23,474 bases of DNA from a virus. Each line of letters opens with the position of its first letter. The first letter of the stretch is position 1. A program made the position numbers and the translations under genes. Under the pieces are notes generated by a model, which was given only the letters and a program-made list of their open reading frames with translations, did not search any database and was not told the DNA's origin. Shown in pieces: positions 1,556 through 23,401 of the stretch. The stretch covers positions 1-23,474 of the IMG/VR virus record IMGVR_UViG_3300031857_001432; one strand, written 5' to 3'.

Positions 1556-1965
1556 GCCTTCGGGAACTCAGGCAGAGGTAGCCCAGGCGCGATCACCTTT
1601 GCCAAGTGATCCACCACGCGCTCGGTTGCATCCTCGTAGAGCGGGTCATAGATAGCCCACGCAATCTTGCCAAACGCTTCCTCCATCGCCTCAACGGTCT
1701 GATCGAGTCTGGCTGTCACGACGTGCAGCATCTCGTGCGTTAGCACCTCGCGCTGGAGTTCTGGCGTCTGCTTCCAGAAGTCGTGGCTCACGCGCAGTTC
1801 GGCTGTCTCAGCCTGTGCGTGCGGGTTGATGTCTGCCCACGCCTCAACGTCTGAGGCATCACGAGCCACTGTGATCTTCCAGTAGGTGACATTCATTGCA
1901 GCTTGCAACTCAGCGACATACGCATCCAGCGCGTCGTATTTGTCCGGCTGTTGCTTCGCTGCCAT
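1552..1965 (-). CDS. putative HExxH zinc metallopeptidase
   Basis: This 137-residue protein carries HEMLH at residues 77-81 in a helical context (LTHEMLHVV), the zinc-binding and catalytic HExxH signature. A downstream glutamate, E115 in ATERVVDHLAK, could be the third ligand, as in other small phage proteins with a HExxH motif followed by an E-rich helix. There is no signal peptide, so it probably acts inside the cell or in the virion. The ATG is preceded by GGAGGAC, and the gene follows a 97-base gap containing two hairpins, one of whose loops is complementary to this ribosome binding site. The substrate is unknown. The motif is clear, but peptidase activity is inferred. Confidence 0.65.
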   Translation of the reverse strand: MAAKQQPDKYDALDAYVAELQAAMNVTYWKITVARDASDVEAWADINPHAQAETAELRVSHDFWKQTPELQREVLTHEMLHVVTARLDQTVEAMEEAFGKIAWAIYDPLYEDATERVVDHLAKVIAPGLPLPEFPKA

Positions 1966-1991
1966 CCGTCCTCCAGTCCTCAGGAAAGTAA

Positions 1992-2022
1992 GCCTGCCAG
2001 CGGGAGGACACCACTGGCAGGC
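1992..2022 (-). terminator. Hairpin upstream of the metallopeptidase gene
   Basis: A perfect 9-bp inverted repeat (GCCTGCCAG at 1992-2000, CTGGCAGGC at 2014-2022) encloses a 13-base loop. On the transcribed strand it is followed by TTACTTTCC rather than a run of T, so it is a weak intrinsic terminator at best. The transcribed loop contains GTCCTCC, the exact complement of GGAGGAC in the ribosome binding site of the gene that follows. It may instead be an RNA regulatory element. Confidence 0.5.
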
Positions 2023-2025
2023 GTT

Positions 2026-2045
2026 GGGCGGCTCTCAGGCCGCTC
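2026..2045 (-). other. Second small hairpin in the 1966-2062 gap
   Basis: GGGCGGC at 2026-2032 can pair with GCCGCTC at 2039-2045 (7 bp with one G-U pair, six-base loop). It lies just downstream of the methyltransferase stop at 2063 and before the 1992-2022 hairpin. No T-run follows. It may be part of a tandem attenuator or processing site. Apart from the two hairpins and the ribosome binding site, I see no gene and no -35/-10 promoter in this gap. Confidence 0.35.
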
Positions 2046-2062
2046 GTTCTCAGTCTAGCCGT

Positions 2063-2632
2063 TCAAGGCTTGCGCCAAATCGTGACATAGGAGGTCTGAA
2101 TCGGCTTTACGCCGAGGCTTGCAAGCCAGTCCCGCACGAAGCGATGCTTGCCGTGCTGTTCATTCACACAGTCGTCCACCGCAATCAGGCAGCCTGACTT
2201 CAAGCGCGGGTAGATGCTCGCCAGCTCAGCGAGGTGATGCGTTGGTGACTCAATGCCGCTCGTGAGGTCAAAGGAGTCTAGATAGAGGAAGTCCAACTGC
2301 TCAGGGTTCTGCAACTTTCGCAGCCCCTGCACTGAGTCAATGCACTGCACGTCAGCCAGAGGCGCGACGCTCTTGGCATAGGCGACCGCTTTCTCGTTGA
2401 TGTCAAAGGACACAATGCTGCCGCCAGTGCGCTCGACAATCCAGTTCCAGACCTGCGTGCTTTGCCCATCGCCAGACCAGTTGTACGCCTCACGAGCGCA
2501 GCCAGTCTCTGCAATGTGAACCTGATCCTGCTTTGCCAAGAGGTAGTAGGCAATCGTCTTGAAGGCGGGCCAGCGATGACCCTCGCCAAGTTTGCCCTTG
2601 AATGCGTAGTCAAAGTCGCTGAGGCTCATCAC
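2063..2632 (-). CDS. class I SAM-dependent methyltransferase
   Basis: This 189-residue protein looks like a Rossmann-fold methyltransferase of the methyltransferase_24 type. It has an ETGC segment and an early glycine-containing stretch, an acidic strand end at IVSFDINEKAV, then DFLYLDSFD and LIAVDDC in the positions of later strands. The methyl acceptor cannot be told; these proteins are often linked to glycan modification, which fits the GT4 gene downstream. The start is GTG 2632 (GTGA overlap with the upstream stop) or the immediately following ATG at 2629; both are in frame. It is the last gene before the hairpin-bearing gap at 1966-2062. Confidence 0.7.
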   Translation of the reverse strand: MMSLSDFDYAFKGKLGEGHRWPAFKTIAYYLLAKQDQVHIAETGCAREAYNWSGDGQSTQVWNWIVERTGGSIVSFDINEKAVAYAKSVAPLADVQCIDSVQGLRKLQNPEQLDFLYLDSFDLTSGIESPTHHLAELASIYPRLKSGCLIAVDDCVNEQHGKHRFVRDWLASLGVKPIQTSYVTIWRKP

Positions 2633-3261
2633 TGCACCCTGTACGAATCAGACCTACAGGTCACTCGGAAGACCAGCCCATTGACCTCGCGTGCTGAGTC
2701 GTCCACTGCGCCGATCAGCCCACAGGATTTACAGATCGCAACCCAGTCTTCACTCATTGCCAGCGTGTCAAAGTTGTGCGGATACTTGGCACGAGCCTCC
2801 TGCTCGTCCAGTGACTCCTCAAGCATTGCCGTCTGACCGATCGTCAGTTGATTCTGCTCCCACTCAAGCGCGTGTCCCAGCCCGTCTTCGGACAACTTGC
2901 CGCTCAGGGTTCGCAGGCTGATGCTCAGCTCCTCGCGCTTTGCTGCTGCCATCTCTTTGGTGATGCCTCGCAGTCTGCGTGTCTCCTCCATCTTCCTGCG
3001 CTTCTTTGGCTTTCGTGGCCGCTGCAACTCAACGGTGCGCCACGCATCGTCCGTAGGCTCGCCGAAGAGCGCGATGAAGCGTCGCTCGACGTCCTCTGGC
3101 ACGCGGCGTTCCTCTGCAACATAGGCGTAGCAACTGCGCCGGCTTATCTGTAGGGTTGTAGCCAGCGACTCAATGCGCCCGCGCGGTGATCGCTCTGGGA
3201 AGGCGTGCTTGGCGATGACCTTCATCCACGCGCCGCTGATAGAACGAACGGTCGTTGCCAT
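2629..3261 (-). CDS. hypothetical protein with N-terminal helix-turn-helix
   Basis: This 210-residue protein has an N-terminal segment (about residues 10-65) that reads as an XRE/YdaS-like DNA-binding fold, with GRIESLATTLQISRRSCYAY resembling a helix-turn-helix. A highly charged linker (PRKPKKRRKMEETRR) and a helical middle follow. The C-terminal part has CKSCG and a later cysteine, with no complete zinc site evident. It may be a phage regulator. The ATG has GGGAGGACT upstream. The product overlaps the methyltransferase gene by GTGA. I do not recognise the full-length family. Confidence 0.6.
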   Translation of the reverse strand: MATTVRSISGAWMKVIAKHAFPERSPRGRIESLATTLQISRRSCYAYVAEERRVPEDVERRFIALFGEPTDDAWRTVELQRPRKPKKRRKMEETRRLRGITKEMAAAKREELSISLRTLSGKLSEDGLGHALEWEQNQLTIGQTAMLEESLDEQEARAKYPHNFDTLAMSEDWVAICKSCGLIGAVDDSAREVNGLVFRVTCRSDSYRVQ

Positions 3262-3271
3262 AGTCCTCCCT

Positions 3272-3670
3272 CTAGTTGCCTGGCTGAATCTCCTCGATTA
3301 TGACGCGGACGACGCCAAGATGCAAGGAGCGCAAGGCGGCGAAGGCGTGCGGCGACAGGTCAATGCTGCGGCTGCGCCTTGTCCACGTGCGCTTCAGGTC
3401 CTTGTGGCATCTGCCGCAGTAGTCGGCGACGATCACGATGACGCACCTGCTGCGGTCATCTGCTCGGCAGACCTTGATCGGGTACGGATCATCACCCCAG
3501 CGGAAGGTTCCGACTGCTGCGTAGTAGCGCGTGCCGTTGCGCGTGTACCAGGCGTTGTTCTTGGTGGCGTCGTACCACGATGCGACGCCGCGCACAGGGA
3601 TGCCGTGTTCTGTTCTGGCTGGCACACTTGGATGGACGGTCAAGATGACCGCCATCAAGAGTGCAATCAC
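3272..3670 (-). CDS. RlpA-like double-psi beta-barrel protein, secreted
   Basis: The GTG start at 3670 shares GTGA with the upstream nuclease stop and gives a 132-residue protein. It opens with a short hydrophobic signal-like segment (MIALLMAVILTVHPSVPA), followed by features of the RlpA/expansin double-psi barrel: GVASWYD, VADYCGRC (the position of the conserved acidic residue), and SIDLSPHAFAAL near the end. Bacterial RlpA acts on glycan strands in the cell wall, and related barrels bind polysaccharide. Here it may assist lysis or wall remodelling, although it is far from the holin and endolysin. The cysteines could form disulfides outside the cell. The fold call is good; enzymatic activity is unproven. 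Confidence 0.75.
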   Translation of the reverse strand: MIALLMAVILTVHPSVPARTEHGIPVRGVASWYDATKNNAWYTRNGTRYYAAVGTFRWGDDPYPIKVCRADDRSRCVIVIVADYCGRCHKDLKRTWTRRSRSIDLSPHAFAALRSLHLGVVRVIIEEIQPGN

Positions 3671-4041
3671 TCAGGCGGCTCCGCTGCTACGAACCAGTCG
3701 CAGAAGTCGTCAAGGTCAAGAATGATCACGGCGCGACGACGGCCGCCGCCAACGCCAGGACTGTCACCAATCACCAAGCCACGCAACTGGTCGCTCTTGA
3801 CCGGCACGGTCTGCAACCAGTCCCACTGGCGTTCGCTGAAGCTGCCGCCCACCTTGCACTGCACGGCGAGCCAATCATTCGCAACATCTTGCTTGCCGCC
3901 GAACTGCCCGACGCGCTGACCGAGCAGGCGCTTGGCAACCTCGCGCTCGAATGCGTTGCCACGAGCGCGGCTGTTCTTCCCCTTGCGGCTCTTGGCTGGG
4001 TCAATCATCTTCTTGGTGGCTTCGTCCTTGAAGTAGCCCAT
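3667..4041 (-). CDS. PD-(D/E)xK nuclease, Hjc-type resolvase-like
   Basis: This 124-residue protein matches the archaeal Hjc/phage resolvase pattern: basic N-terminus, RGNAFEREVAKRL (E32/E34), G-x-G-G-KQD with D52, then WLAVQCK with Q61-C-K63 as the (E/Q)xK element. Such enzymes cut branched DNA during recombination or before packaging. Start ATG 4041 overlaps the preceding TGA by one base (TGATG). A glycine/arginine turn (GVGGGRRRA) precedes the C-terminal strand. The window has several other recombination genes upstream, which supports a role in processing replicating phage DNA. Specificity for Holliday junctions is inferred. Confidence 0.72.
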   Translation of the reverse strand: MGYFKDEATKKMIDPAKSRKGKNSRARGNAFEREVAKRLLGQRVGQFGGKQDVANDWLAVQCKVGGSFSERQWDWLQTVPVKSDQLRGLVIGDSPGVGGGRRRAVIILDLDDFCDWFVAAEPPE

Positions 4042-4328
4042 CAGATGAGTCTCGCCAAGACTGCAGAGCCACCGTCGCTAAGCGTGAAGCGTGCGACTTG
4101 AATCTCCATCACGCCGTGCTTGATCAGGTCGGCGTTCGTCTTGCGGTTGCCGATCCCTTCGTACAAAAAGAACCAGCCGTCAGGCGCGATAGCGTCGGCG
4201 TAGCGCATTGAGAGGTTGCACCAGACGCGGCCAGAGAAGCCAGGCTCCTCGCACCACGCATCGGCGCCCTCTTGAACCGCGACCACCTTGTCGTCAAGGA
4301 ATGGCGCGGCGCGCTCGATGCGGGTCAT
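4041..4328 (-). CDS. hypothetical protein, 95 aa
   Basis: I do not recognise this 95-residue protein. A longer in-frame extension exists, but the start MTRIERAAPF at 4328 is preferred because ATGA is shared with the stop of the small zinc-finger gene upstream, matching the junction style of this genome. It is a mixed alpha/beta sequence with no obvious membrane segment; visible pieces are ADAWCEEPG and GWFFLYEGIGNRKTNAD. It is coupled to the resolvase-like gene by a TGATG junction. Confidence 0.7.
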   Translation of the reverse strand: MTRIERAAPFLDDKVVAVQEGADAWCEEPGFSGRVWCNLSMRYADAIAPDGWFFLYEGIGNRKTNADLIKHGVMEIQVARFTLSDGGSAVLARLI

Positions 4329-4510
4329 TTCACGCAGGCTCGGTGATACCAGGCGAAGCGGGTGTTGCGCTTGTTGGCGACGAAGGTGATCACCTTCACG
4401 CGCCACGACTCCTTCAGCGTGTTCAGGTCGCCGCTGCACGCGCCGCAGCTCGTTGCTGCGAAGACAGGCTCCTTACGAGGTCCGCCTCGCTGCGCCTTTA
4501 CTGCTGCCAT
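4325..4510 (-). CDS. small CCHC zinc-finger-like protein
   Basis: This 61-residue basic protein has C22xxC25 (SCGACS) and H56xxC59 (YHRAC) 30 residues later, a spacing that suits a treble-clef or zinc-ribbon knuckle. AAGGAG lies seven bases before its ATG. The start overlaps the end of the upstream membrane protein by 13 bases. It may bind nucleic acid, but nothing in the sequence fixes a function. Confidence 0.65.
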   Translation of the reverse strand: MAAVKAQRGGPRKEPVFAATSCGACSGDLNTLKESWRVKVITFVANKRNTRFAWYHRACVK

Positions 4511-4674
4511 AGCACGCTCCTTACGATCCAGATGACCGTGGCAAACGCCAAGATCAGGAAGATGGTACCCGCTGCCGCACCGCCACGTCTAGCAGCCACC
4601 GGCAGCGACAACCCGACGATCAGCGCAAAGAAGAGTTGCAGCCCTGCGATCACGAGACCAACGCTATCCCACAC
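4498..4674 (-). CDS. small two-helix membrane protein, 58 aa
   Basis: With the GTG at 4674, one base after the TGA of the upstream gene, this reads as 58 residues with two hydrophobic helices (about 5-26 and 33-55), separated by a short polar turn containing RRGG. A TTG start twelve bases earlier is also possible; a longer ATG-initiated version would overlap the 64-residue gene heavily and is rejected. No clear ribosome binding site precedes either start, so translation may depend on coupling. The function is unknown. Two-helix proteins of this size in phages include holin-like and superinfection-exclusion proteins, but I cannot choose between these. Confidence 0.55.
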   Translation of the reverse strand: MWDSVGLVIAGLQLFFALIVGLSLPVAARRGGAAAGTIFLILAFATVIWIVRSVLWQQ

Positions 4675-4675
4675 G

Positions 4676-4870
4676 TCAGTGACCAATGGTGCTAAGGCTG
4701 CGGACGAGTTGCTCCGTCGCCCGCTCGACCGCCTCTTGGACGGTTGCGCCAGTGAAGGTGATCTCGCCGTCCTCATCGTCAAGGATGACGTGCCACTTGT
4801 CGCCGTCCTTCACGGCCTCGGCGAATCGGTAGCCTGCCTGCGCTGCAAGAATCTCCAACTCCTTGAACAT
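4676..4870 (-). CDS. hypothetical protein, 64 aa
   Basis: This is a small acidic protein with a predicted beta-beta-alpha layout: KWHVILDDEDG followed by EITFTGATVQEAVERATEQL. Its ATG at 4870 overlaps the TAA of the dNMP kinase by one base (TAATG), and AGGAGG precedes it. The gene belongs to the kinase transcription unit. I do not recognise a family. Confidence 0.7.
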   Translation of the reverse strand: MFKELEILAAQAGYRFAEAVKDGDKWHVILDDEDGEITFTGATVQEAVERATEQLVRSLSTIGH

Positions 4871-5427
4871 TAGACCTCCTCCATCTTGTCGGTGATGACG
4901 CGGTAGGCGTCCTCAGGCGACAGGCTTGTCGTGTCCACCGTAAGGTCTGCCCTGCTGTCTGTCCAGCCCCTTTCCGTGATGTCAGCGGCTCCGTACAGGT
5001 TGCCGCCCACCCTCTCGCGCCTGACCTCCTCCGAGGCTGTCAGCCGAACGATGAAGATGTCTGGGTCAATGGCTCGCAGGTACTGCACCTCGGCATCCAG
5101 CCGCACGTCATCCACGACCACGCCAAAGCCGATCCGCTTCAGCTCAAAGTAGTCCTTGCGCCAAACCCTGAGCCAGAAGTGCGTGTCCACGCCCCGCATT
5201 GCCGCACCAATGTCCTGCAGCAGTTCTCTGCCGGTCAGGGTGCTATCACCAAAGTTGCGGCTCACGGTCAGCATCTCGCTCTTGCCGAGGTCGTTGTACG
5301 CCATCGCAGCGATGTGCTTGATGGCGTCCGCGATGCCGTGCCGACGGTACTCACGATGCTCGACAAAGAGCGACGCGATGGTGGACTTGCCGCTCCCCTG
5401 CGGCCCAAGAATCGCCAGCGACCTCAT
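4870..5427 (-). CDS. deoxynucleoside monophosphate kinase-like P-loop protein
   Basis: This 185-residue protein starts MRSLAILGPQGSGKST, with a Walker A motif GPQGSGKS at residues 8-15. It continues with features seen in phage dNMP kinases: HGIADAIKHIA, GRELLQDIG, DTHFWLRVW, then VVVDDVRLDAEV and an IFIVRLTAS strand with arginines after it (EEVRRERVGG) in the lid position. It would phosphorylate dNMPs to dNDPs for phage DNA synthesis in the cytoplasm. The start at 5427 is chosen over an upstream in-frame ATG because it gives an ATGA overlap with the preceding gene. A general AAA/adenylate kinase-like P-loop role is the alternative. Confidence 0.82.
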   Translation of the reverse strand: MRSLAILGPQGSGKSTIASLFVEHREYRRHGIADAIKHIAAMAYNDLGKSEMLTVSRNFGDSTLTGRELLQDIGAAMRGVDTHFWLRVWRKDYFELKRIGFGVVVDDVRLDAEVQYLRAIDPDIFIVRLTASEEVRRERVGGNLYGAADITERGWTDSRADLTVDTTSLSPEDAYRVITDKMEEV

Positions 5428-6125
5428 ACCGGCACCACTGAACTGATGGCTAGTTCCCGAAGCCCGTTCTCGATCCGAGACCACGGTCCAACGATCTTCT
5501 GAATGTCAGCGTCTGAGTATGTTGACCCGACGTTCAGAGCAATGGACTTGATCTGACCCCAGTCCATTGGCTGCAGCTCAAACTCGCGGACAATCTCTCC
5601 AATCGCTGGCCCGAAGTTGGCAAGCGCAAGTTGCTTCAACTCGATAAAGAATGCCGCTGGCGTGTTGGGTCGGAACTGCCGTGATTCCCACTCCAACACC
5701 GTAGCCATTGGGATTCGCCGTCCAACAGCGACCATTGCAGAGCCTTGCTGCATTAGCACCGGCACAATCGCCGTGATGCCTTTGTCGGCCGCCGCTGCTG
5801 CAGCCCTTGCGTCAACGATCAGGCACTTGCGGCTGGGATCAAGAGCAACAGCCTTAGCGTCTAAGCCCTTATCGTCAATGAATAGGTCTGCCTCCTTGAC
5901 TGGACCGCTCGTGTCAAAGAAGCGGTGCTTTGGTCGCAATCCTGCGACCTCAGCCGTGTGAATCGCTGCCCACTCGCCAATAACCCCTGCTAGGTCGTTC
6001 ACGATGTTCTGATCAGAGCCTCGGTCTTGCTGGCTATTTCTAAATGCGTTTCCTCTGCTTGTCCTAGCTCCTGCCAGAATCGCAAGTCCGACTGCTATCT
6101 CCTGCTCCATTCTCAGCCTGATCAT
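5424..6125 (-). CDS. putative PD-(D/E)xK nuclease-fold protein
   Basis: I do not recognise a named family for this 233-residue protein, but its first half has a plausible restriction-endonuclease core: GVIGEWAAIHTAEVAGL (E51), KEADLFIDD (D80) and GLDAKAV with D89-A-K91, followed by a strand CLIVDARA. The rest is helical with a tryptophan-rich WGQIKSIAL stretch. The start ATG at 6125 overlaps the upstream stop (ATGA). It lies between a winged-helix replication protein and the dNMP kinase, consistent with a DNA-metabolism role. The nuclease call is inference from residue spacing. Confidence 0.55.
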   Translation of the reverse strand: MIRLRMEQEIAVGLAILAGARTSRGNAFRNSQQDRGSDQNIVNDLAGVIGEWAAIHTAEVAGLRPKHRFFDTSGPVKEADLFIDDKGLDAKAVALDPSRKCLIVDARAAAAAADKGITAIVPVLMQQGSAMVAVGRRIPMATVLEWESRQFRPNTPAAFFIELKQLALANFGPAIGEIVREFELQPMDWGQIKSIALNVGSTYSDADIQKIVGPWSRIENGLRELAISSVVPV

Positions 6126-11722: not shown

Positions 11723-11922
11723 TCTTTCCACCTCAAGTATCCTGTTGCGATCCAGACGATTGTCATCAGGATGAACAGCGTTGCCATTGTGCTTTGCGTC
11801 TGACCCTCTGGCAGTACGACCACCGCGAAGAGCAGACCGAGGATCGTCCACGAGCCTCCGACGAGATCGTTGATGATGTTCCTAAGCACGGCGACCACCC
11901 TTTCGGCTTGGCGTATTTCCAT
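11719..11922 (-). CDS. small two-helix membrane protein, 67 aa
   Basis: [11 protein letters not shown] start at 11922 gives 67 residues: a short amphipathic N-terminus, then two hydrophobic helices (about 20-35, [13 protein letters not shown], and 42-60, [18 protein letters not shown]) and a basic RWKE end. The ATG has AGGAGG only two bases before it and overlaps the upstream gene by 41 bases; GTG codons at 11898 or 11889 would cut the overlap. It may be a holin or antiholin candidate given the lysis context, but no family is recognised. Confidence 0.55.
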
Positions 11923-12937
11923 TGCCTCCTGCTGGTCCGCCGCCGCCAATGTTAGCAGCCGCTCGTGCGGCATTTGACGCTGCGGCAGCCACACTTGCAA
12001 CTTGGCTGGCAATGACTGCGACGGCAACCGGCTGCGCTTCTTCCTTCTCGATCGGGTCAAGGTCTTTGCCGATCTCGGTGATGGCCGCGATGTTGGCGAA
12101 CACTTCGCCGACCGCCTCAACCGCAGCTCCTACAACTGGCAGAGCGGGTTCGGGTTCAGGAGTAGGTAAAGGAGTGGGATCAGGAGATACGGAAGGAGAT
12201 GGCGGAACTTCTGTTGGTGTAGGCGTTGGCTCTGGTGTTGGTTCTGGTGTCGGTGCATTTGTCACCTCAGGACTTGGCTCCTCCGTTGGTGTTGGGGTTG
12301 GTTCAGGTGTGGGTTCTGGAGTTGGCTCAGGGGTCGGCTGAGGAGTTGGCTCAGGCGTAGGCTCAGGCGTGGGCGTCGGCGTCGGCTCTACAGAAGGCTC
12401 TGGCGTAGGGGTAGGAGCCACGCTAGGGCTGGGTTCTGGCGTCTGAGTAGGGGTTGGCTCAGGAGTCGGCTCTGGGGACGGCGTAGGGCTGCCTACGGCG
12501 ATTGTGAGGAAGCCGATGCCGCAGCACGAGTCGGTGGACAGCACGCGGAAGCCAAACAGATCGCCTGCGGCCAGCACCACCTCGATGTAGCCAGTGGCTG
12601 ATTGCGTGTTGCCTTCTGCAAGCGTGAGCCATTCGCCGCCCACGAGATACTGCGGCTTGTCGTAGAACGCGCCGTCGGTCGTCAGGTACGACCAGAGGTA
12701 CTGCGCCGTCTCAGCTTCTAGTGCGGTTGTGGTCAGGCTGGTCAGCGCGTTCCAGCGCGGCTGCTCAGGGAGCGGATTGTTCGCGCCGCCAAGCGTGACG
12801 GAGCCGTCTTCGTTCGTGACGACCGTGCCGTTGGAATCGGTGTTGAACTCCCACTCGTCAAGATCGTCAAGTGCGTAGACAGGCTGAACGAATGGCAAAA
12901 CGATTGCCAAAGCGAGCAGGAGTGCGCGCAACCTCAC
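11882..12937 (-). CDS. secreted protein with Pro-Thr-Glu repeat stalk
   Basis: GTG at 12937 (GTGA overlap) opens with [20 protein letters not shown] then YA, a signal peptide of about 22 residues. Residues 23-148 form a domain that ends [13 protein letters not shown]...[20 protein letters not shown], which from memory resembles bacterial extracellular domains with a GDxFGFRVxSxDN signature. Residues 151-264 are a Pro-Thr-Glu repeat (PEPTPEPT) that would be an extended rod. After it comes an Ala-rich region with many Val/Ala/Glu residues and a basic glycine-rich end (PSRKGGRRA). It lies between the second tail fibre and the lysis genes. Phage proteins with signal peptides usually act on the host envelope. 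A virion-associated role is the alternative. Confidence 0.7.
12146..12487 (-). repeat. Degenerate tandem repeat coding for PEPT units
   Basis: About 340 bases consist of six-base units varying around GGTTCTGGT/GGCTCAGGA on the plus strand, coding for Pro-Glu-Pro-Thr on the minus strand. The units use mixed synonymous codons, so the repeat is old at DNA level or selected at protein level. Length variation by slippage or recombination is expected between relatives. Confidence 0.85.
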
Positions 12938-13122
12938 TTGCCTGATTGAGATTGCAACCACGCCAGAAGCGTGCCGATTCCTCCTACGCCAAGTAGGGCG
13001 CCAAGCCCCTTCAGGACGGCAAGGCCGCCCTTCATTTGGTCAATCTCCGCCTTCAGACTGTCAATCTTTGCGGACTGCGCGTCCAGCCGGTCAATGATTG
13101 CGTCTACTTGGGAGCGCGTCAT
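12934..13122 (-). CDS. coiled-coil plus membrane-anchor protein, 62 aa
   Basis: The first 33 residues are a heptad-type coiled coil ([20 protein letters not shown]), followed by a glycine-rich hydrophobic segment (about 36-55, [20 protein letters not shown]). This layout resembles XhlA-type haemolysin/holin helper proteins of phages. ATGA is shared with the S74 fibre gene upstream and GTGA with the secreted protein. It may aid lysis, but no family match was confirmed. Confidence 0.65.
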
Positions 13123-14672
13123 TCAGCCTCCAGTGCCTTCAGTCGCTCCTCTAGATCATTGACTCGATGCCAGAGCGCTGCGATCAACGCAACACTGTCA
13201 ATGGATTCTGGCTGTCCTTCGGCATTGTACGCGATTGCGTGTGTCAATCCTGCGTCGTGGATTTCTTCTGCAATAAATCCGAGGCGCGTCTGTCCAAGTT
13301 CTTCTGGGTTGTCAATCGTTGACTCAAAATGCTTTGGCACAATCTTGCGCGCAGCCTCAAGCACGGCTGCATCCGCAGGCACGATGTTGGTCTTGTAGCG
13401 CGACGATGAGGTATAGCGGCGAATCTGATACTCGGTTCCGCTGAGCAGCACGAAGACGCACTCGTTAGTGGTTGCCGTTGTGGTGCTGGGACCATCCGCA
13501 TTGAAGTTTCCGTTGCCTGCGCTCACGCTTAGCGTTGCAGATAGGAAGTCAGCAGCAAAGGCATCGTCTGTCCGCAGCGTCGTTGACGACGAGCGGTAGA
13601 GGTTGACGTCGCCCGAACTGCCAGTGCCGTCGCCCCACTCAATCGTACCGTCTGCCTCAATGCGGATGCGATCCCCAGCGTCCCCACTGATTGCTCCCGT
13701 GAAGACTGCATTCCCAGCCGTGCCGCGCAATGCGCGCATAAAGCCATTAGATGCAACGATGTTGCCGTTGGTGACGCCGATTGCCGTTGAGCCAGCCGTC
13801 CCGCTGACCGTCAAGCTGCTAAACGTCGTTGCCCCTAAGTTCAGCGTGCCGTCAATGACGACAGTCCCTGAGCCACCGAGGTTTGGCGTGATCGTCAGTT
13901 CACCGTTGACTTGACGAAGCCGCGCAGGACCATAGGTGGCTGGGCTGCTGTTCTCGGCGATGTAAAGGTCGGAGCCGCCTGAGATGAGGCGCAACTCGGC
14001 AATGGAGACGTCGCTCTGCGACGAGACGGTGCCAGTCGTCTCAACCTTGACTGACACAAGGATGAAGGCCGCGTCGGACGGGATGGCGAGCCGCGTGTAG
14101 TTGCTGGCGATGCGGAGCGTGTCAGCGCTGCCGATTTCTGCCAGCGTGCGCTCGCGTGTGTCGCCAGTCCCCGTCGCGGTCTCCGCGTCAATCTCGTAAT
14201 ACTGGTACGACAGCACAACCTTTGCGTTGGAGGTTGACGTCGCGTTGATGCAGTAAACCTCTGGCGTGAAGATGAACGATCGGTTGCGCGTACCAGGCAC
14301 CGGCACAAAGCGCTTGATGGTCAGGCTATTGCCGCTGCTCGTGCCACCTGCGATGCGGAAGCGCAGGACATTGCCAGAGCCAGCCGAGGCGTCCTCGATC
14401 ACGCGCGCGGTGATCGCACCGCCGCTGTTGTCCTCAGCCGTGAAGTACGGCAGCGGATTCTCGTCGTTGATGTCGGCATCTGGCTCGTCAGGCGCCGAGG
14501 CAAAGTCGCCATTGGCAACGCCAGCCTGAATCTCGCGCAGCGCAGCAGGACCGAAGAGGAGCGCGGTAGCGCCGTCCGAGTCGCTGCCGATCAGGGTCTC
14601 GCCGCCGTCTGCGGTGACGTCGCCCTCGTAGCCGGTTAGCCCTGGAAGATTCGTGCCGTACTGCTCAGCCAT
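13119..14672 (-). CDS. tail fibre with S74 intramolecular chaperone
   Basis: This 517-residue protein ends in an S74 peptidase/chaperone domain beginning near residue 423: SSRYKTNI (the Ser-Lys dyad of the auto-cleavage site), GFIAEEIHDAG, SIDSVALIAALWHRVNDLEE and a coiled-coil tail. In known fibres this domain drives trimerisation and then cuts itself off. The middle (about 250-420) is low-complexity beta-rich with repeats such as TLNLGATTF and SGDAGDRIRIEADGT, typical of a triple-beta shaft. The N-terminal part (about 80-230) looks like an Ig- or carbohydrate-module-like domain with alternating strands. Its ATG overlaps the upstream TAA by one base (TAATG). It is a likely receptor-binding fibre. 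Confidence 0.85.
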   Translation of the reverse strand: MAEQYGTNLPGLTGYEGDVTADGGETLIGSDSDGATALLFGPAALREIQAGVANGDFASAPDEPDADINDENPLPYFTAEDNSGGAITARVIEDASAGSGNVLRFRIAGGTSSGNSLTIKRFVPVPGTRNRSFIFTPEVYCINATSTSNAKVVLSYQYYEIDAETATGTGDTRERTLAEIGSADTLRIASNYTRLAIPSDAAFILVSVKVETTGTVSSQSDVSIAELRLISGGSDLYIAENSSPATYGPARLRQVNGELTITPNLGGSGTVVIDGTLNLGATTFSSLTVSGTAGSTAIGVTNGNIVASNGFMRALRGTAGNAVFTGAISGDAGDRIRIEADGTIEWGDGTGSSGDVNLYRSSSTTLRTDDAFAADFLSATLSVSAGNGNFNADGPSTTTATTNECVFVLLSGTEYQIRRYTSSSRYKTNIVPADAAVLEAARKIVPKHFESTIDNPEELGQTRLGFIAEEIHDAGLTHAIAYNAEGQPESIDSVALIAALWHRVNDLEERLKALEAE

Positions 14673-16087
14673 TATTCCCCTACCAAGATGCGCTTCAGCG
14701 CCTTGCCTAGTTGCTTGCGTCGGTACTCAGCCTCAATGTCGTAGCGCACCTGATAGGTGCTGTCCGACTCAAAGCTCATTGTGACGGATGCGATCCTGAG
14801 AATCGTGCCTGATAGGTCAAGTGCAGAACTTGTGAGCTTGACGTACTGGTTCGGCAGCCACGCCTTCACAAGCGTCCACGTGCTTGCCCCAGTCTGTGCG
14901 TAGCCCTGCGTGTAGCCGTATGTCCAGTCTGGCGATGCGGTCTGGCTCAAGTCAGAGCCAGCCAGCGTGAAGTTGACCGTGCGGACTGGCAAGGCACGCG
15001 CTTGGAAGGTCGCCTTTGTAAGTCGCTGAATCCTTGTCGTGCGGCTGGCTGCGCCTTTGATCTTTGGCGCGCTGAACACTCCGTGCGGCTCAGGGCCGTT
15101 GCGCGTGGACAAGCCAGAGCCAAAGTATGGCGTCCCGCCGTTGTAGGTTCGGAAATAAGGATCGTTGGTCGGCGGAGTCGCGTTCTTGTCCCATCGAGCG
15201 CGTGTGTTTGCCGCCTGCACAAAGATGCCCTTCACCATCTGGTCGTGGTCAACGTCAACGGTGAACGCGCGTGGCAGCATCTTGCTGGCAGCGCTTGCCG
15301 ATCCAACCGCGACAGAGGCGGGGTCAGTGACAATCTCCAGCGGCGCGTTGGCGTATGAAGGTGCAGCATCCACTGGCCCGTAGTTCAGACGCCCATCCCC
15401 GTCCACCCAATAGCGGAACACCTTGCCCGAAGCGCCTGACGCTTCCTCTGCGATCTGGTCAAGAATACTGACTAGGCTGGCTGGCTTGAAGGTCTGGCGC
15501 CCAATCGTGACTGCAGCGCCCGTGTAGACGGCGCGCGTGCTGCCGCTGATGACGGATGTGTCCAAGAGTTGCCGCGTTGTGGCGTCATCCACCTGGCTGT
15601 AAATCTTCCCCAAGATTGCGTTGATGAGCGCTTGATCGGTTGAGCTGGCATTGCCGCGCGAGAACGGTCCGACCATCTGCTTGATGTTCGTTCCGACAAA
15701 GCCTTTGCGGACGATCGTCTTCTCAAGCCACGCATCGGCATCCGCCACGCTGACCGTGCATCGCGTGCCTAGCCCATTCGGGAGCAGGCTGGCTGAGACG
15801 TTTGTGATGAAGCCGAGGAAGAGCGGCGTGCCAGCGCTGTAGCGGGAATCAAAGAACTGCACCCGCGCGTTGTCATAGACGCCGCCTGAGCGCCACCACG
15901 GTCCCCCGCCTGGTGTGACTGGCTGGATGACGTCAAAGGTCATCTGCCCGCCGCCATCCCCTGAGAGCGTCAGGGAGAAGGTCGCAAGGTCAACGTATGG
16001 CGTCGTCGTTGCGGACGGCGTTGGTAGGTCAAGAAGGTTTGCGCCGCCGTCTACGCCTGCGACGATAAGGCTGAATGGGTTGGCCAC
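14672..16087 (-). CDS. minor tail / tail-tip hub protein
   Basis: This 471-residue protein follows the tape measure at a four-base spacing. It begins with a distal-tail-like beta domain (PFSLIVAGVDGG, VDLATFSLTLSGDGGGQMTF) that in siphophages sits under the tail tube. It has RVQFFDSRYSAGTPLFLGF, a beta-rich core, and ends with SVTMSFESDSTYQVRYDIEA and a basic helix. The position and architecture suit a tail-tip or hub protein joining the tape measure to the fibre. No enzyme motif was seen. A family name would need a profile search. Confidence 0.7.
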   Translation of the reverse strand: MANPFSLIVAGVDGGANLLDLPTPSATTTPYVDLATFSLTLSGDGGGQMTFDVIQPVTPGGGPWWRSGGVYDNARVQFFDSRYSAGTPLFLGFITNVSASLLPNGLGTRCTVSVADADAWLEKTIVRKGFVGTNIKQMVGPFSRGNASSTDQALINAILGKIYSQVDDATTRQLLDTSVISGSTRAVYTGAAVTIGRQTFKPASLVSILDQIAEEASGASGKVFRYWVDGDGRLNYGPVDAAPSYANAPLEIVTDPASVAVGSASAASKMLPRAFTVDVDHDQMVKGIFVQAANTRARWDKNATPPTNDPYFRTYNGGTPYFGSGLSTRNGPEPHGVFSAPKIKGAASRTTRIQRLTKATFQARALPVRTVNFTLAGSDLSQTASPDWTYGYTQGYAQTGASTWTLVKAWLPNQYVKLTSSALDLSGTILRIASVTMSFESDSTYQVRYDIEAEYRRKQLGKALKRILVGE

Positions 16088-18225: not shown

Positions 18226-19236
18226 TTAGGGCGCTACGCTCAATGGTGAATCCACAATCACTTCAAGCGACTTGCCTGAAGTTGCGTCATACGCGAGTCG
18301 CAGGGTCACCTCGTTCACGATCAGCCCGTCCTGCTCAGCCGAGAGCGGAACGACTGACTCGATCACCCACGAGCCAAGAATCCACACACCGTAGTTATCG
18401 GTTGTGGTGCCGTAGATGCGGAGGAAGCGCTGCTCTGCCTGCTCAGTGATGCCCCACGCGCCGTTGGCGATTGCGTCGCTGTTGCTTGCAACCGTGATCG
18501 TGAGCGTTGCATCAAGCGCCTGCGTGAAGGCTGCGGTTGCCGCCGAGAGGGTGGCATCCAGTGCGTTCACCATCGCCATTCCCGTCGTGATTGACAGGCT
18601 GAACGAAAGCAGATGGTCGTAGTCCGTTGCGCCAGTTCCTGACTTGTCAGGGAAGTTTGTGTCGCTTGCCAACTTGAGCAGGCGGCCAGCCAGCACCGGC
18701 TGCGCTGGAACTGCGGTTGGGAAGTCAAGCGCAGAACTCGCCACGCTCGTTGCGCCAAAGGTCGCGCCAGCCTGCAGCAGCCCTGAGGCGTCTGCAGAGA
18801 GCGTGATCTCCGTTGGGATCGCATCCGTGACGCGGTACTTCTGCACGCCGTCCGTGACGAGCATCGAGTAGAAGATTGGTGTGTCTACGTCGCTCTGGTT
18901 CGGACTCCACGTCCACGAGTACGGCGCAGCCGTCCCTGAAGTCGTGGCGCCGATGGCGTCAAAGAAGAGTGGAAGTGTGCGGAGTGAAGCTGCTGACTCA
19001 GCCAGCGTGATGACTGGATTCTTGCCAGTGATGGCGACGCGCCCAGCCTGAATCGGCGTGCGCTTGCCAACGCTCGTGTCTTCGCCGAGGTCCACCGTGA
19101 CGCCGAGGTCAATCGTGCCAACGGCATCTGCGAACAGGATTTCGCCGGTTGCGGTTCCGATGCTTGCGGCCGTGCCGAAGCCAGTCTGCGAGGCTGCTGC
19201 GATTCGCGTCAGAGCCTTCGCGCCGTAGGTTGCCAT
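18226..19236 (-). CDS. major tail protein
   Basis: This 336-residue protein, rich in Ala, Thr, Ser and Asp, has alternating strands typical of tail tube subunits: GEILFADAVGTIDLGVTVDL near the start, VGKRTPIQAGRVAITGKNPV, DYDHLLSFSLSITTGMAMVN and EVTLRLAYDATSGKSLEVIV near the end. It sits two genes upstream of the tape measure and directly before the chaperone frames, the standard place of the tube protein. The start is ATG 19236 with AAGGAG before it. It probably has an extra C-terminal domain, as it is longer than a minimal tube protein. Confidence 0.78.
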   Translation of the reverse strand: MATYGAKALTRIAAASQTGFGTAASIGTATGEILFADAVGTIDLGVTVDLGEDTSVGKRTPIQAGRVAITGKNPVITLAESAASLRTLPLFFDAIGATTSGTAAPYSWTWSPNQSDVDTPIFYSMLVTDGVQKYRVTDAIPTEITLSADASGLLQAGATFGATSVASSALDFPTAVPAQPVLAGRLLKLASDTNFPDKSGTGATDYDHLLSFSLSITTGMAMVNALDATLSAATAAFTQALDATLTITVASNSDAIANGAWGITEQAEQRFLRIYGTTTDNYGVWILGSWVIESVVPLSAEQDGLIVNEVTLRLAYDATSGKSLEVIVDSPLSVAP

Positions 19237-19251
19237 CTTGCTCTCCTTGCT

Positions 19252-19683
19252 CTACGCGGTGTAGGCGATGGTCTCGTAGACCGTCACCTCAGCCGTTGCT
19301 GAGACCGTCAGGTAGTCCTGATCGGCGTATGTATCGGTTCCCATTGTCGTGCTTGTCACGGCAACCTGGACCGCTTCACCTGAGATTGTCACCGCGCCGT
19401 TGAAGGCGTCGCGGAGCCAACTTCGGAAAGTATAAAGGTCGCGGTACTTCTGCTCCATTCGTGGGATCGGGAGCAGGTACGCCACGACGTTGACGCTTAG
19501 CACAACCGTGCGGTTGCCTGAGCCGACGCTGATCGAGTCGTCCGCTGGGAGCAGCACGATGGCTGGCACGACGGCGAGAGACTCTGGCGGGGTGGCGTGG
19601 ACGGCACGGATGGCGTAGCCGATTGGCGGCTCCACTGAGAGCAGCCGCTCCTTCATTGCGTCAAGAATGGTGAGGTCGTTCAT
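19252..19683 (-). CDS. tail terminator / head-tail joining candidate
   Basis: This 143-residue protein is placed just before the major tail protein, where tail terminators usually lie. It starts with a helix (LTILDAMKERLLSVEP) and then carries beta strands (VVPAIVLLPADDSISVGSGN, RTVVLSVNVVAYLLPI), a helix with RDLYTFRSWLRDAF and a C-terminal strand (ATAEVTVYETIAY). This layout fits gpU-like terminators. The start ATG is shared with the stop of the TTG-start gene (ATGA). The function is inferred from position. Confidence 0.65.
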   Translation of the reverse strand: MNDLTILDAMKERLLSVEPPIGYAIRAVHATPPESLAVVPAIVLLPADDSISVGSGNRTVVLSVNVVAYLLPIPRMEQKYRDLYTFRSWLRDAFNGAVTISGEAVQVAVTSTTMGTDTYADQDYLTVSATAEVTVYETIAYTA

Positions 19684-19859
19684 TCAGGCAGAGAAGCAAC
19701 GAATGAGTTGGCCCAAGATTCTGCCTCAGCACGATCTGCCCACGGTCGCCCATCTGGGTGAACGTCCTGCAATAAAAAAGGCGCCCCAGTTGAGGTTGGC
19801 TGGACCTCATCCCAGATTCTGATTGTATTGGCATTGTCAATTTCAACGCGGTATCGCAA
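19680..19859 (-). CDS. small TTG-start protein, 59 aa, after the fibre
   Basis: A TTG at 19859 preceded by AGGAGGTTCAC opens a 59-residue frame whose TGA overlaps the next ATG (ATGA at 19680-19683). The AGGAGG overlaps the TAG stop of the fibre gene. The product has VEIDNANTIRIWDEVQP near its start and DVHPDGRPWADRAEAESWAN toward its end. The W-x5-EAxxWA pattern resembles small proteins and C-terminal segments found next to phage fibres. It may be a fibre assembly helper. Standard ATG-based gene calling would miss it. Confidence 0.75.
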   Translation of the reverse strand: MRYRVEIDNANTIRIWDEVQPTSTGAPFLLQDVHPDGRPWADRAEAESWANSFVASLPE

Positions 19860-19868
19860 GTGAACCTC

Positions 19869-22800
19869 CTATGGCTTTGTGCTATATGTGATTGGACTGA
19901 ATGTCGCTGAAAGAACTCCTGCCGGCGCTGATTGTAAAGTCGTATTTGTTGCATTCGCTCCACCGCCAGTGACAAATAGTCCTTTGCCGTATGCAACTGC
20001 TCGCAATTCTACTGTTCCAGCGCTAGTTCTGCTTGTCCAACTAGTCCCATTTGTTGATGTGTAAATTGCTGCACCTACACCAACGACGCACCAAGTCTTG
20101 CCGTCCCAATCAACGTCATAAAATGCGGACGTTCCAACTGCAGTATTGTGCGTCCACGCAGTCCCCGTAGTTGATGTGGCTGTTTTCCCTGCGCCGCCGA
20201 CAACGACCCAAGTTCCTCCACCATAGGAAACCCCGCCAACAAATGAGGTGTCAAAACCAGAAGTTCTTGACGTCCAAGTTGTGCCATTGCTTGACGTGAC
20301 CATTCCGCCACCTTGCCCAGTTGCAACAAATAAGCCATTTGCGTAGGTAATGTTGTAAATGACTCCAGCATTTAGGAAGTTTGACGTTCTTACCGTCCAC
20401 GTTACGGTGTCTGGCGAAGTCGTTATTTTCCCTCCGTCGCCGACACACACCCAAAGACCGCCACCATAGGCAGCTGCCCTCACTTCATCTGTGCCGAAGC
20501 CTGCGTTTTGTGAAGTCCAAGTCACCCCGTCAGTTGATGTTGCAACTCTTGATTGTTCTCCTGCTATGAAATATATTTCGTCGTTCACTGCTGCCGCGTT
20601 GACCGCATATGATGGCGTGAACCCAGTTGCAGTTCGAGCCGTCCAAGTGATTCCATCGGCTGATGTGGCGAGCGAGGCATTGCGCCCGCCAATAATCCAA
20701 AGGTTTCGTCCGTAGGCAACCGCAAGAACATTGTTCGTTGAGCTGAACGTTGAGGTCCTAGCAGTCCACGTCACACCAGAATCCCGGTGAATGCTGGTAA
20801 TGTCGCCAGTCGCCGTGATGCGTTTATGCTCTCCAACAGAAAAAGTTTCTGCAGTGCCTGAAATTGAAATCGTGCTGTCAAAATCCCCTGCATTCTCAAC
20901 GTCATATGCTGCGCTCGTCAGACCTAAAGCAGTACCAGCAACGGAAGCGGAAATGTCAATCCAGTATCCGCCGCCGGAACTTGGCGTCGTCCACGCAGGC
21001 ACGGTGCCAGACACCGAAAGCACTTGATTCGCTGTTCCGATCCCCAAGCGCGTGACCGTGGCCGAGCCAGAGGCGTACAGAATGTCGCCTGCCGTCGTGA
21101 CCGTGTTCTTCGGGATTGCCGTGCCAGCCAAGTCATAGGCTGACTTCACGCTGTTCGGCGTGGCCGCCGTTGTGGTCGAGGTGGACGAGGTTGAGTCGGT
21201 GAGCGTCGTGACGCCGTAGACCGAGGTTGAGGCGGTGCCAACAGAGACGGCAGCCGTTCCAGTCGTTGTCGTGACTGAAATTGGCGATGTCCCAGTGACC
21301 GCCGAGACTTTGCCGTCAGCGAGGTCATATGCAGACTTGACGCTATTTGGAGTCGCAGCTGTCGTTATAGAAGTTGAATTGGTGGCATCGGTCAGAGTCG
21401 TGACGCCATATACGCCACCAGTTGCAGCCGTCCCTGGCGCAGCGGTAGGAGTTGTCCATTCGGGAACGCCGCCTGCAGAAACGCTAAGAACCTGTGCGGC
21501 CGTACCAATGCCAAGTCGCGTGACCGTGGCTGAGCCTGAGGCGTAAATCAAGTCACCGGCTGCCGTGACGGTTGCCTTCGGAATTGCAGTGCCTGCCGTC
21601 GTATTTGCCGTATTCGCAAGGTCATACGCCGACTTGACTGAGTTAGGAACCGCAGCGGTCGTTGTGCTTGTGCTGCTTGTTGAATCCTCAAGCTGCACCG
21701 CGCCCTTGACAGTGGTGCTGCCGTCCGCAACAGAAATTACTGGAGCCGTGCCGCCTGTAGATGAGATTGCGCCAGTCCCTGCAACCGACGCGACTTTGCC
21801 AGCCGCGAGATCGTAGGCAGACTTGACGCTGTTCGGCACCGCTGCAGTGGTCGTGCTTGTGCTTGACGTGCTGTCCTCAAGTTGCACGGCTCCGCGTACT
21901 GAAGTCGTTGCGTCGGCGACTGAGATGACTGGAGCCGTGCCGCCAGTTGATGCAATTGCGCCAGTGCCGGCGACAGACGCAACCTTGCCTGCAGCCAAAT
22001 CGTAGGCGGATTTGACGGAGTTAGGTGTTGCCGCTGTCGTTGTGCTTGTCGAGTTTGTCGCATCTGTCAGCGTGGTGACGCCGTACACGCCGCCAGTTGC
22101 GGCAGTGCCGACGGCGGCAGGAGGTGTCACCCACTCAGGAATTCCGCCTACGCTTACTTGCAGCAGTTGCGCTGCGGTTCCAATGCCGAGTCGCGTGACC
22201 GTTGCCGATCCGCTTGCGTAGAGCAGATCGCCTGTTGCGGTGACGGTGTTCTTTGGAATCGCCGTCCCAGCGGTTGTGTTGGCAGTGCTTGCGAGATCGT
22301 ATGCCGACTTCACCGAGTTCGGTGTTGCAGCCTTCGTCGTAGAGGTGCTGCTCGTGGAGTCTTCAAGTTGAACGGCACCGCTCTGCGTCGTGCTTGCAGC
22401 GTCAATGGAAACCGTTGCAGTCCCGCTTACGGTTGATGCGTTGATCGGACTTGTGCCGACGACTACGGTCGCGGAGCCACCTCCGCCAGTTTGGTTGACC
22501 CACTGCGTGTTGTAGTCGGTCGAGTCAATCTTGGCGAGAACCTGACCAGCAGTTCCCCCGACTGGCACGCCAGTGCCAGCAGGTCCAGTCGCGCCCGTGG
22601 CGCCAGTATTTCCAGTTTCGCCCTTGTCGCCGCGTGGAATTGAGAAGTCAAAGATTGCTGCGCCAGAAGTCCCAACGTTGACCACAGTGGCGTTTGAGCC
22701 AGCGGTGCCGGTCGTGACCGTGCCAACAGTAATCGTAGCGGCAGATCCTGTGGCGCCTGTCGGCCCAGTGTCGCCAGTGTTTCCCTTATCTCCCTTATCT

Positions 22801-23051
22801 CCCTTGACGAGTGTGAAGTCAAAGACGGCAGCCGAGGATGAGCCGCTGTTGGTGACTGCAAATGCCGTGCCTTGCGTGACGGTGCCGACCGCAATCGTTG
22901 CGGCAGAGCCAGCAGGACCAGCGGTGCCAGCAGGACCAGTAGGTCCAGTCGGACCCTGCGCCCCTGCGGGTCCAGGTGCCTGAACGACAATCTCAGTTCG
23001 CGTGTCGTTGATCGAGATGATCTGCTGCGTCAGATCAACTTCTACGCTCAT
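19869..23051 (-). CDS. long tail fibre: collagen-like repeats, six-fold linker repeats, beta-propeller tip
   Basis: This 1060-residue protein starts MSVEVDLTQQIISINDTRTE, then has three Gly-X-Y collagen-like stretches (residues 27-48, 84-102, 141-161) split by two copies of a beta module ending in FDFTLVK or FDFSIPR. Residues about 190-690 hold linker repeats: NSVKSAYDLA six times and GSATVTRLGIGTA three times. From about 750 the chain carries seven copies of an S/T-x-D/N-G-x-T/S-W-T unit (TSADGITWTAR, TSTDGVTWTSQ, and others), about 40-45 residues apart, that suit a seven-bladed Asp-box-like beta-propeller. Such a tip is likely to bind a host glycan or protein. The start has ATGA overlap with the BppU-like gene. 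Neuraminidase residues were not seen. Confidence 0.85.
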   Translation of the reverse strand: MSVEVDLTQQIISINDTRTEIVVQAPGPAGAQGPTGPTGPAGTAGPAGSAATIAVGTVTQGTAFAVTNSGSSSAAVFDFTLVKGDKGDKGNTGDTGPTGATGSAATITVGTVTTGTAGSNATVVNVGTSGAAIFDFSIPRGDKGETGNTGATGATGPAGTGVPVGGTAGQVLAKIDSTDYNTQWVNQTGGGGSATVVVGTSPINASTVSGTATVSIDAASTTQSGAVQLEDSTSSTSTTKAATPNSVKSAYDLASTANTTAGTAIPKNTVTATGDLLYASGSATVTRLGIGTAAQLLQVSVGGIPEWVTPPAAVGTAATGGVYGVTTLTDATNSTSTTTAATPNSVKSAYDLAAGKVASVAGTGAIASTGGTAPVISVADATTSVRGAVQLEDSTSSTSTTTAAVPNSVKSAYDLAAGKVASVAGTGAISSTGGTAPVISVADGSTTVKGAVQLEDSTSSTSTTTAAVPNSVKSAYDLANTANTTAGTAIPKATVTAAGDLIYASGSATVTRLGIGTAAQVLSVSAGGVPEWTTPTAAPGTAATGGVYGVTTLTDATNSTSITTAATPNSVKSAYDLADGKVSAVTGTSPISVTTTTGTAAVSVGTASTSVYGVTTLTDSTSSTSTTTAATPNSVKSAYDLAGTAIPKNTVTTAGDILYASGSATVTRLGIGTANQVLSVSGTVPAWTTPSSGGGYWIDISASVAGTALGLTSAAYDVENAGDFDSTISISGTAETFSVGEHKRITATGDITSIHRDSGVTWTARTSTFSSTNNVLAVAYGRNLWIIGGRNASLATSADGITWTARTATGFTPSYAVNAAAVNDEIYFIAGEQSRVATSTDGVTWTSQNAGFGTDEVRAAAYGGGLWVCVGDGGKITTSPDTVTWTVRTSNFLNAGVIYNITYANGLFVATGQGGGMVTSSNGTTWTSRTSGFDTSFVGGVSYGGGTWVVVGGAGKTATSTTGTAWTHNTAVGTSAFYDVDWDGKTWCVVGVGAAIYTSTNGTSWTSRTSAGTVELRAVAYGKGLFVTGGGANATNTTLQSAPAGVLSATFSPITYSTKP
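21121..22440 (-). repeat. Imperfect repeats coding for fibre linker modules
   Basis: Six copies of a block coding for NSVKSAYDLA occur in this stretch, in two alternating contexts (followed by TANTTAGTAIPK or by a GKVASVAGTGAI-like segment). Three longer blocks contain SATVTRLGIGTA. Copies differ mostly at synonymous positions. The region is a likely site for length change by recombination. Confidence 0.85.
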
Positions 23052-23401
23052 CGCGTCACCTCAGGTGAAACCGTCGCCGCTCCTTGCAAGAGGCGCGTCA
23101 CCACGCCACCCGCGCTCACGAGTTCAAGGTCATAGACGCCGCTGAATGGCGCGGTCAGCGCAGCCGTGGTCGTTGCCGAGATAAGAATGGCAATCGTTCC
23201 AGCAGCTCCGCCGAGTGTGATCCCTGAGCCTGAAGTGAGGCTCACGATGGTCGAGGTGGACGAGTAGGTCTCGCGCACCTGCATCCGTGCCGTGTAGCCG
23301 GTCAGGTTGATTGCGGTGCCAGCCGAGTCCTTCCAGGTGATCGTCAGCTCAAAGGTTGCGCCCTGGTTGATGGTGATGTTGAAGGTATTGCCAAGTGCCA
23401 T
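23048..23401 (-). CDS. BppU N-terminal-like Ig-fold protein
   Basis: This 117-residue protein starts NTFNITINQGATFELTITWK and contains GTAINLTGYTARMQVRETYS, then two beta pairs ending in SGVYDLELVSAGGVVTRLLQ. This is the pattern of phage baseplate upper protein (BppU)-like or Ig-fold domains that hold fibres. It is joined to the 1060-residue fibre gene by ATGA, so the product may link the fibre to the tail. The gene starts at TAATG after the upstream partial gene. Confidence 0.7.
   Translation of the reverse strand: MALGNTFNITINQGATFELTITWKDSAGTAINLTGYTARMQVRETYSSTSTIVSLTSGSGITLGGAAGTIAILISATTTAALTAPFSGVYDLELVSAGGVVTRLLQGAATVSPEVTR

Follow-up and report, generated by a model that had tools for sequence, protein, structure and literature searches.

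The fibre gene and its surroundings

The window, the whole stretch of viral DNA analysed here, covers the 23,474 bases of its source record, and a search of the phage genome collection with this DNA gave no match. Its minus strand carries a fibre gene (19869-23051) encoding 1060 amino acids, in which a short peptide, three Gly-X-Y blocks and a shaft of six Phage_fiber_2 repeats precede a head that starts at about residue 693 (Table 1). A preliminary description of this DNA had read the fibre as a collagen-like base, a repetitive linker and a propeller head. The base is borne out by the three Gly-X-Y blocks, with the Pfam Collagen model itself scoring 18.6 bits, below its cut-off of 27.2, and the linker by PF03406, which matches the shaft in six stretches (E 5e-61). 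The propeller does lie at the C-terminal end as proposed, but a start at position 20800 does not hold, as homology among the relatives begins at about residue 693 (20975). NCBIfam matches to Lcl, SclA, SclB and BamI fell far under their cut-offs and were set aside as collagen-repeat or propeller-repeat resemblance.

Table 1. Features of the fibre gene and of two further genes in the window. Relatives are denoted by L numbers.
Feature	Position	Strand	Fibre residues	Basis or remark
117-aa protein just upstream of fibre	23048..23401	-		Overlaps fibre start
Anchor peptide	22974..23051	-	1-26	N-terminus near-identical in L011, L012, L014 and L015, including relatives with other heads
Collagen-like block 1	22902..22973	-	27-50	8 Gly-X-Y triplets
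Collagen-like block 2	22740..22802	-	84-104	7 triplets
Collagen-like block 3	22569..22631	-	141-161	7 triplets
Shaft, six Phage_fiber_2 repeats	21117..22421	-		PF03406
Neck sub-domain of head	20781..20975	-	693-757	Conserved among propeller heads; monomer-model confidence low
Strand D of blade 7, from N-terminal side (ring closure)	20757..20765	-	763-765	Model DSSP and split HMM match; assignment to blade 7 inferred
Blade 1	20634..20729	-	775-806	Model and blade HMM
Blade 2	20505..20603	-	817-849	Model and blade HMM; conservation lowest of the blades
Blade 3	20388..20483	-	857-888	Model and blade HMM
Blade 4	20262..20360	-	898-930	Model and blade HMM
Blade 5	20148..20243	-	937-968	Model and blade HMM
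Blade 6	20031..20123	-	977-1007	Model and blade HMM; weakest full repeat
Blade 7, strands A-C	19923..20006	-	1016-1043	Model and blade HMM
C-terminal tail and stop	19869..19916	-	1046-1060	Ends FSPITYSTKP; PITYS stretch conserved among propeller heads
Fibre-like protein with S74 chaperone	13119-14672			Behind tape measure

The 117-aa protein matches phrog_1084 (E 1.2e-31) and phrog_3304, 'L-shaped tail fiber protein assembly' (E 3.2e-13), and Methylophilales phage Melnitz-1 has a homologue within a set of annotated tail fibre genes, with neck genes following. It is likely to be an adaptor or partner of the fibre. In relatives the gene order runs from the major head protein through a small gene, a head-tail adaptor (phrog_442) and the 117-aa protein to the fibre. 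Past the fibre, the window continues with unnamed genes, a tail completion/Neck1-like protein, the tape measure and later the Peptidase_S74 protein. A family search with the 336-aa (18226-19236) and 471-aa (14672-16087) neighbours returned no match, and the 143-aa neighbour (19252-19683) gave a sub-threshold Pfam row only; roles as tail tube or tail terminator for genes near the fibre are guesses from gene order.

A predicted seven-bladed propeller at the fibre tip

The preliminary description had rested its propeller on seven evenly spaced units of the form S/T-x-D/N-G-x-T/S-W-T. The seven units and their regularity stand: the tryptophans of the W-T motifs fall at residues 762, 803, 845, 885, 926, 966 and 1005, with spacings of 41, 42, 40, 41, 40 and 39 residues (range 39-42). 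The strict pattern, by contrast, is matched by only four of the seven. A relaxed form of the motif occurs six times in the head and at most twice in any of 20,000 shuffled heads, and the evenness of spacing was equalled in none of 200,000 random placements, so that the array is far beyond chance. Seven evenly spaced motifs are also present in relatives L017, L022 and L064, of which L064 is approximately 94% like L017. The published Asp-box consensus (PMC2716378) reads (S/t)-X-(D/n)-X-G-X-(T/s)-(W/f/y), and matching this consensus to the head yielded no canonical Asp-box. The form seen instead, S-x-D-G-x-T-W, lacks one residue before the glycine and recurs five or six times in L017, L022 and L003. 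Because the motif is one residue short of the consensus, the label 'Asp-box-like' is the right one, whereas plain 'Asp-box' would be wrong.

To count blades independently of the preliminary description, we used a blade HMM made from 22 units of six relatives, with the window excluded and only W-to-W segments of 34-46 residues admitted. It found six full units in the head, scoring from 46.0 down to 11.2 bits; the weakest of these, blade 6, compares with 9.4 bits for the best of 200 shuffles. The seventh unit was split, with HMM positions 2-27 matching residues 1009-1033 (16.0 bits) and positions 34-40 matching residues 758-764 (1.9 bits), the latter fragment lying before blade 1 and being weak if taken alone. 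Such a division, with parts of one unit at either end of the domain, is what closure as a ring would show. Profile and model together thus support a head that would form a closed seven-bladed ring of six whole blades and a split seventh.

The model in question was calculated with AlphaFold2 for the monomer, one of the checks that had been proposed, from five aligned heads, four of which form two close pairs; an alignment with distant rows (A2) was left out. The result was a propeller with regular blades and an overall pLDDT of 70.5. Ten-residue means were 78-94 over model residues 81-310 and 66-81 over 311-340, and pLDDT fell below 50 in the model neck (1-68) and C-terminal tail (352-368). In prediction, then, the head adopts a seven-bladed beta-propeller fold, and the closed propeller anticipated from the motifs is upheld at the level of the model and the relatives-only HMM.

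Structural comparison pointed in the same direction. Among the 977 chains aligned by VIA, the best match was 7big (v13WRAP-T, a designed seven-bladed propeller; Z 31.6, rmsd 2.4, 272 of 286 residues aligned). Another repetitive propeller also stood at the top and many WD40-type chains tied, which we take to have seven blades except where their titles say so. The top solved match in Foldseek was YCF48 (E 8e-11), which is presumably seven-bladed, and WD40-type binders were again among the best. By sequence the head matched Ycf48-like chains at E 4.3e-4 to 1e-3; the alignment profile gave a weaker match to Ycf48 (E 0.003) than the single sequence did. Rotavirus VP4 rows in the sequence search had E 0.009 and weaker and covered a short part. 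With DUF6242 (PF19755, gathering cut-off 29 bits), L017 (42.1) and L003 (40.0) scored above the cut-off, and the window head (28.1) and L022 (26.3) below it; no mention of this family was found in the literature searched. We rejected the photosystem II assembly role of YCF48 as unlikely for the head, because the propeller here is fused to a phage fibre shaft. Papers retrieved for YCF48 together with phage and propeller in the literature searched dealt with photosystems only.

The D-A loops of propellers, which join one blade to the next, and the B-C loops lie on one shared face. Across the propeller heads, which represent only three lineages, conservation was 0.33 for the D-A loops, 0.31 for B-C, 0.39 for A-B and 0.66 for C-D, with 0.59 for the neck sub-domain. 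For this small sample, the variable D-A and B-C loops and the conserved neck would fit a variable binding face on a constant docking part.

Head exchange among relatives

With the 336-aa gene that follows the fibre as query, we gathered 135 relatives, of which 80 were kept. The fibre place holds a fibre with a propeller head in six of the 80 and one that differs in head or organisation in a further six. In 59 of the 80 the head-tail connector lies directly upstream and the fibre is absent. The other nine were not judged: eight have fewer than 700 bases upstream, and L021, with 746 bases, was left unclassified.

The window and L015 (which is one contig with L002) share a head on unlike shafts. 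Head and stop codon are identical over 1107 bases, yet the window shaft has three Gly-X-Y blocks and six Phage_fiber_2 copies, against seven blocks and one copy in L015. The identical run comprises 2005 bases (18983-20987), and its upstream end at 20987 corresponds to residue 689, adjoining the head. Elsewhere the two sequences are approximately 3% apart (317 mismatches in 10,045 columns), and outside the run the difference amounts to at least a few per cent. A run of 2005 bases without a difference therefore indicates a recent exchange in which the head and the downstream genes moved together. Taken alone, this pair could reflect one recent general recombination, since the run extends into the neighbouring genes to 18983.

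The converse arrangement, one shaft with different heads, was seen between L015 and L012/L014. The seven Gly-X-Y blocks agree in length in all of them, and up to locus base 1766 their DNA is 90% identical (1774 columns). Through the head they are unmatched, save for one 53-base piece of shaft repeat that matches elsewhere, and from locus base 3234 they are again 95% alike. No propeller was found in the partial contigs of L011-L014 and L016. Upstream of the 336-aa gene, L011, L012, L013, L014 and L016 carry a second fibre gene that is shorter and that the window lacks; it starts with M/VANIPKVWNG and contains one Phage_fiber_2 repeat. Head kinds ending in FYLYGVS or rich in glycine occur in either fibre gene of these relatives. 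The model of an alternative head (that of L014, L011 and L013) is all-beta, with a mean pLDDT of only 57.3, and VIA aligned it at Z 7.0-8.3, a level that VIA calls common, with galectins and GH32 C-terminal sandwiches and, further down, with a phage Dit carbohydrate module. The model thus offers no more than a hint that this head might be lectin-like.

In these comparisons the anchor is conserved and the distal domain that it carries is exchangeable. Because the heads are swapped near the shaft/head junction, the fibre behaves as a receptor-binding protein would. We tentatively propose, while regarding it as somewhat doubtful, that the one fibre position, together with the second fibre gene of the relatives, serves as a docking site for rotating unrelated heads in a lineage for which the phage genome collection gave no match at DNA level. 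The heads would comprise a glycine-rich tip, a beta-sandwich that may be lectin-like and the seven-bladed propeller, swapped near the shaft/head junction, with the two non-propeller kinds occurring in both genes. The natural pairs, one head on different shafts and one shaft with different heads, allow direct tests of head function.

Propellers of the same family were also observed outside fibres of this type. In L003 (ORF 3851-5434) one stands behind a Sipho_tail (Dit-like) domain, and in L004/L005 the propeller lies inside 2475-aa proteins. Judged from sequence, the family is mobile among virion proteins.

Function and place on the virion

We consider it probable that the gene encodes a virion fibre in a tailed phage, and that this fibre is a homotrimer whose three-propeller tip is an interchangeable receptor-binding head. 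This reading rests on the sequence repeats, the predicted fold and the exchange of heads; the trimer, adhesion, the glycan and the place on the virion we infer. The fibre would be anchored to the particle through its short N-terminal peptide, with the 117-aa neighbour probably taking part, and the shaft would consist of a collagen-like triple helix and the Phage_fiber_2 repeats. Collagen helices are established as trimeric, and as the shaft repeats imply a trimer, the tip would bear three propellers. Each chain would end in a closed seven-bladed propeller whose seventh blade takes its last strand from the N-terminal side. Recombination near the shaft/head junction would then alter what phages of this group grip, and by precedent a surface glycan would be the most likely ligand. 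The suggestion of the preliminary description that the head binds a receptor is supported at sequence level, being strongly indicated by head exchange between close relatives; terminal position and exchange together make host binding the best reading.

Where on the particle such a fibre would sit is a closer matter. The gene lies among head-tail joining genes and not behind the tape measure, so a neck fibre is possible. We give somewhat less than even weight to a neck (collar) fibre that aids cell capture or surface holding and leaves specific receptor binding to the S74 fibre. The head-tail adaptor and 117-aa protein that precede the fibre in relatives, and the Neck1-like protein and tape measure downstream in the window, agree with this, as does the separate Peptidase_S74 protein behind the tape measure. 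However, gene place does not settle virion place, the exchange of heads resembles that in adsorption proteins, and a homologue of the 117-aa partner is located in a group of genes annotated as tail fibre. On gene order and homology the fibre may be mounted at the neck as readily as at the tail tip, and the evidence from the 117-aa protein fits both. At the neck, the fibre would be a neck-mounted, head-swapping adhesin.

Two other roles for the propeller compete with host binding by the fibre tip. It is improbable that the head, instead of only binding, is an enzyme of the endosialidase or GH74 type that cuts capsule or slime. Most propellers of the Asp-box type are glycosidases (PMC2716378), and phage endosialidases are described as using propellers, but Pfam and NCBIfam searches of the head, at the limits applied, reported no family of sialidases or glycosidases, and the best Foldseek matches were YCF48 and WD40-type binders. 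We also think it unlikely that the head is a ligand-free spacer or a decoration of capsid or fibre. The related propellers within other virion proteins (behind the Sipho_tail domain of L003 and in the 2475-aa proteins) would suit such a part, but the fibre head is terminal and exchanged for unrelated heads, and in the three lineages its D-A and B-C loops are the least conserved, in contrast to C-D.

Host binding by a propeller tip has precedents. Among them are Staphylococcus phage phi11 gp45 and 80alpha gp61, propeller receptor-binding proteins. According to PMC4901313, phi11 gp45 is trimeric with one five-bladed propeller per chain, the last blade of which is closed by an N-terminal strand alongside three C-terminal strands. 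Those proteins have five blades, a coiled-coil stem and C-terminal tower domains, whereas the window fibre has seven predicted blades at its very C-terminus and a collagen/Phage_fiber_2 shaft. The phi11, PRD1 and phiKZ propellers also appear in PMC6115969; phiKZ gp131C, with seven blades, and PRD1 P2 can be likened by description only, as propellers in putative receptor-binding virion proteins. Likewise by description, the eBAP3 fibres of eCIS combine a collagen-like triple-helix shaft with a beta-propeller lectin, but they belong to contractile injection systems and include a TNFR-like domain (PMC12923769). In the accessible text of PMC10253068 the term 'propeller' is absent. Propeller receptor-binding proteins of phages have been published already, and so have, in contractile injection systems, collagen and propeller fibres (PMC12923769); the window fibre is a clear further case and a concrete phage example of a collagen-like shaft with a propeller tip.

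Other resemblances concern the fold or the gene arrangement. YCF48, the cyanobacterial photosystem II assembly factor, combines the best solved Foldseek match with a weak sequence match; it is a free-standing factor, unlike the fibre-fused propeller of the window, and its function is not carried over. Hokovirus is presumably a virus of a protist. The collagen triple helix repeat motif-containing protein of Hokovirus HKV1 (BFVD A0A1V0SF56) was the top viral structure match (E 2.3e-18, 31% identity), so that a propeller is again met in a protein whose name refers to collagen repeats. In Actinomycetia phage DSL-LC01 (L008, locus 1850-4807) the propeller relative WJZ48562.1 lies between collagen-like genes. 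It is unfused, in contrast to the window head, being a gene of its own with 290 codons that closely follows a collagen-like gene; the two share a frame and are separated by a stop codon.

Some further observations were made in passing. In Synechococcus phage B23 (L010, MN695335.1) a propeller frame is open on the plus strand at locus 3900-4750, where the deposited record instead annotates a pair of hypothetical genes on the other strand, probably a misannotation. Elsewhere in the window, positions 11882-12961 encode a protein of 359 aa that contains a long PTPEPTPE repeat and several tandem-repeat arrays and has no PHROG match, and positions 17-1231 carry a glycosyltransferase gene (PF00534, E 2.2e-14; phrog_2170).
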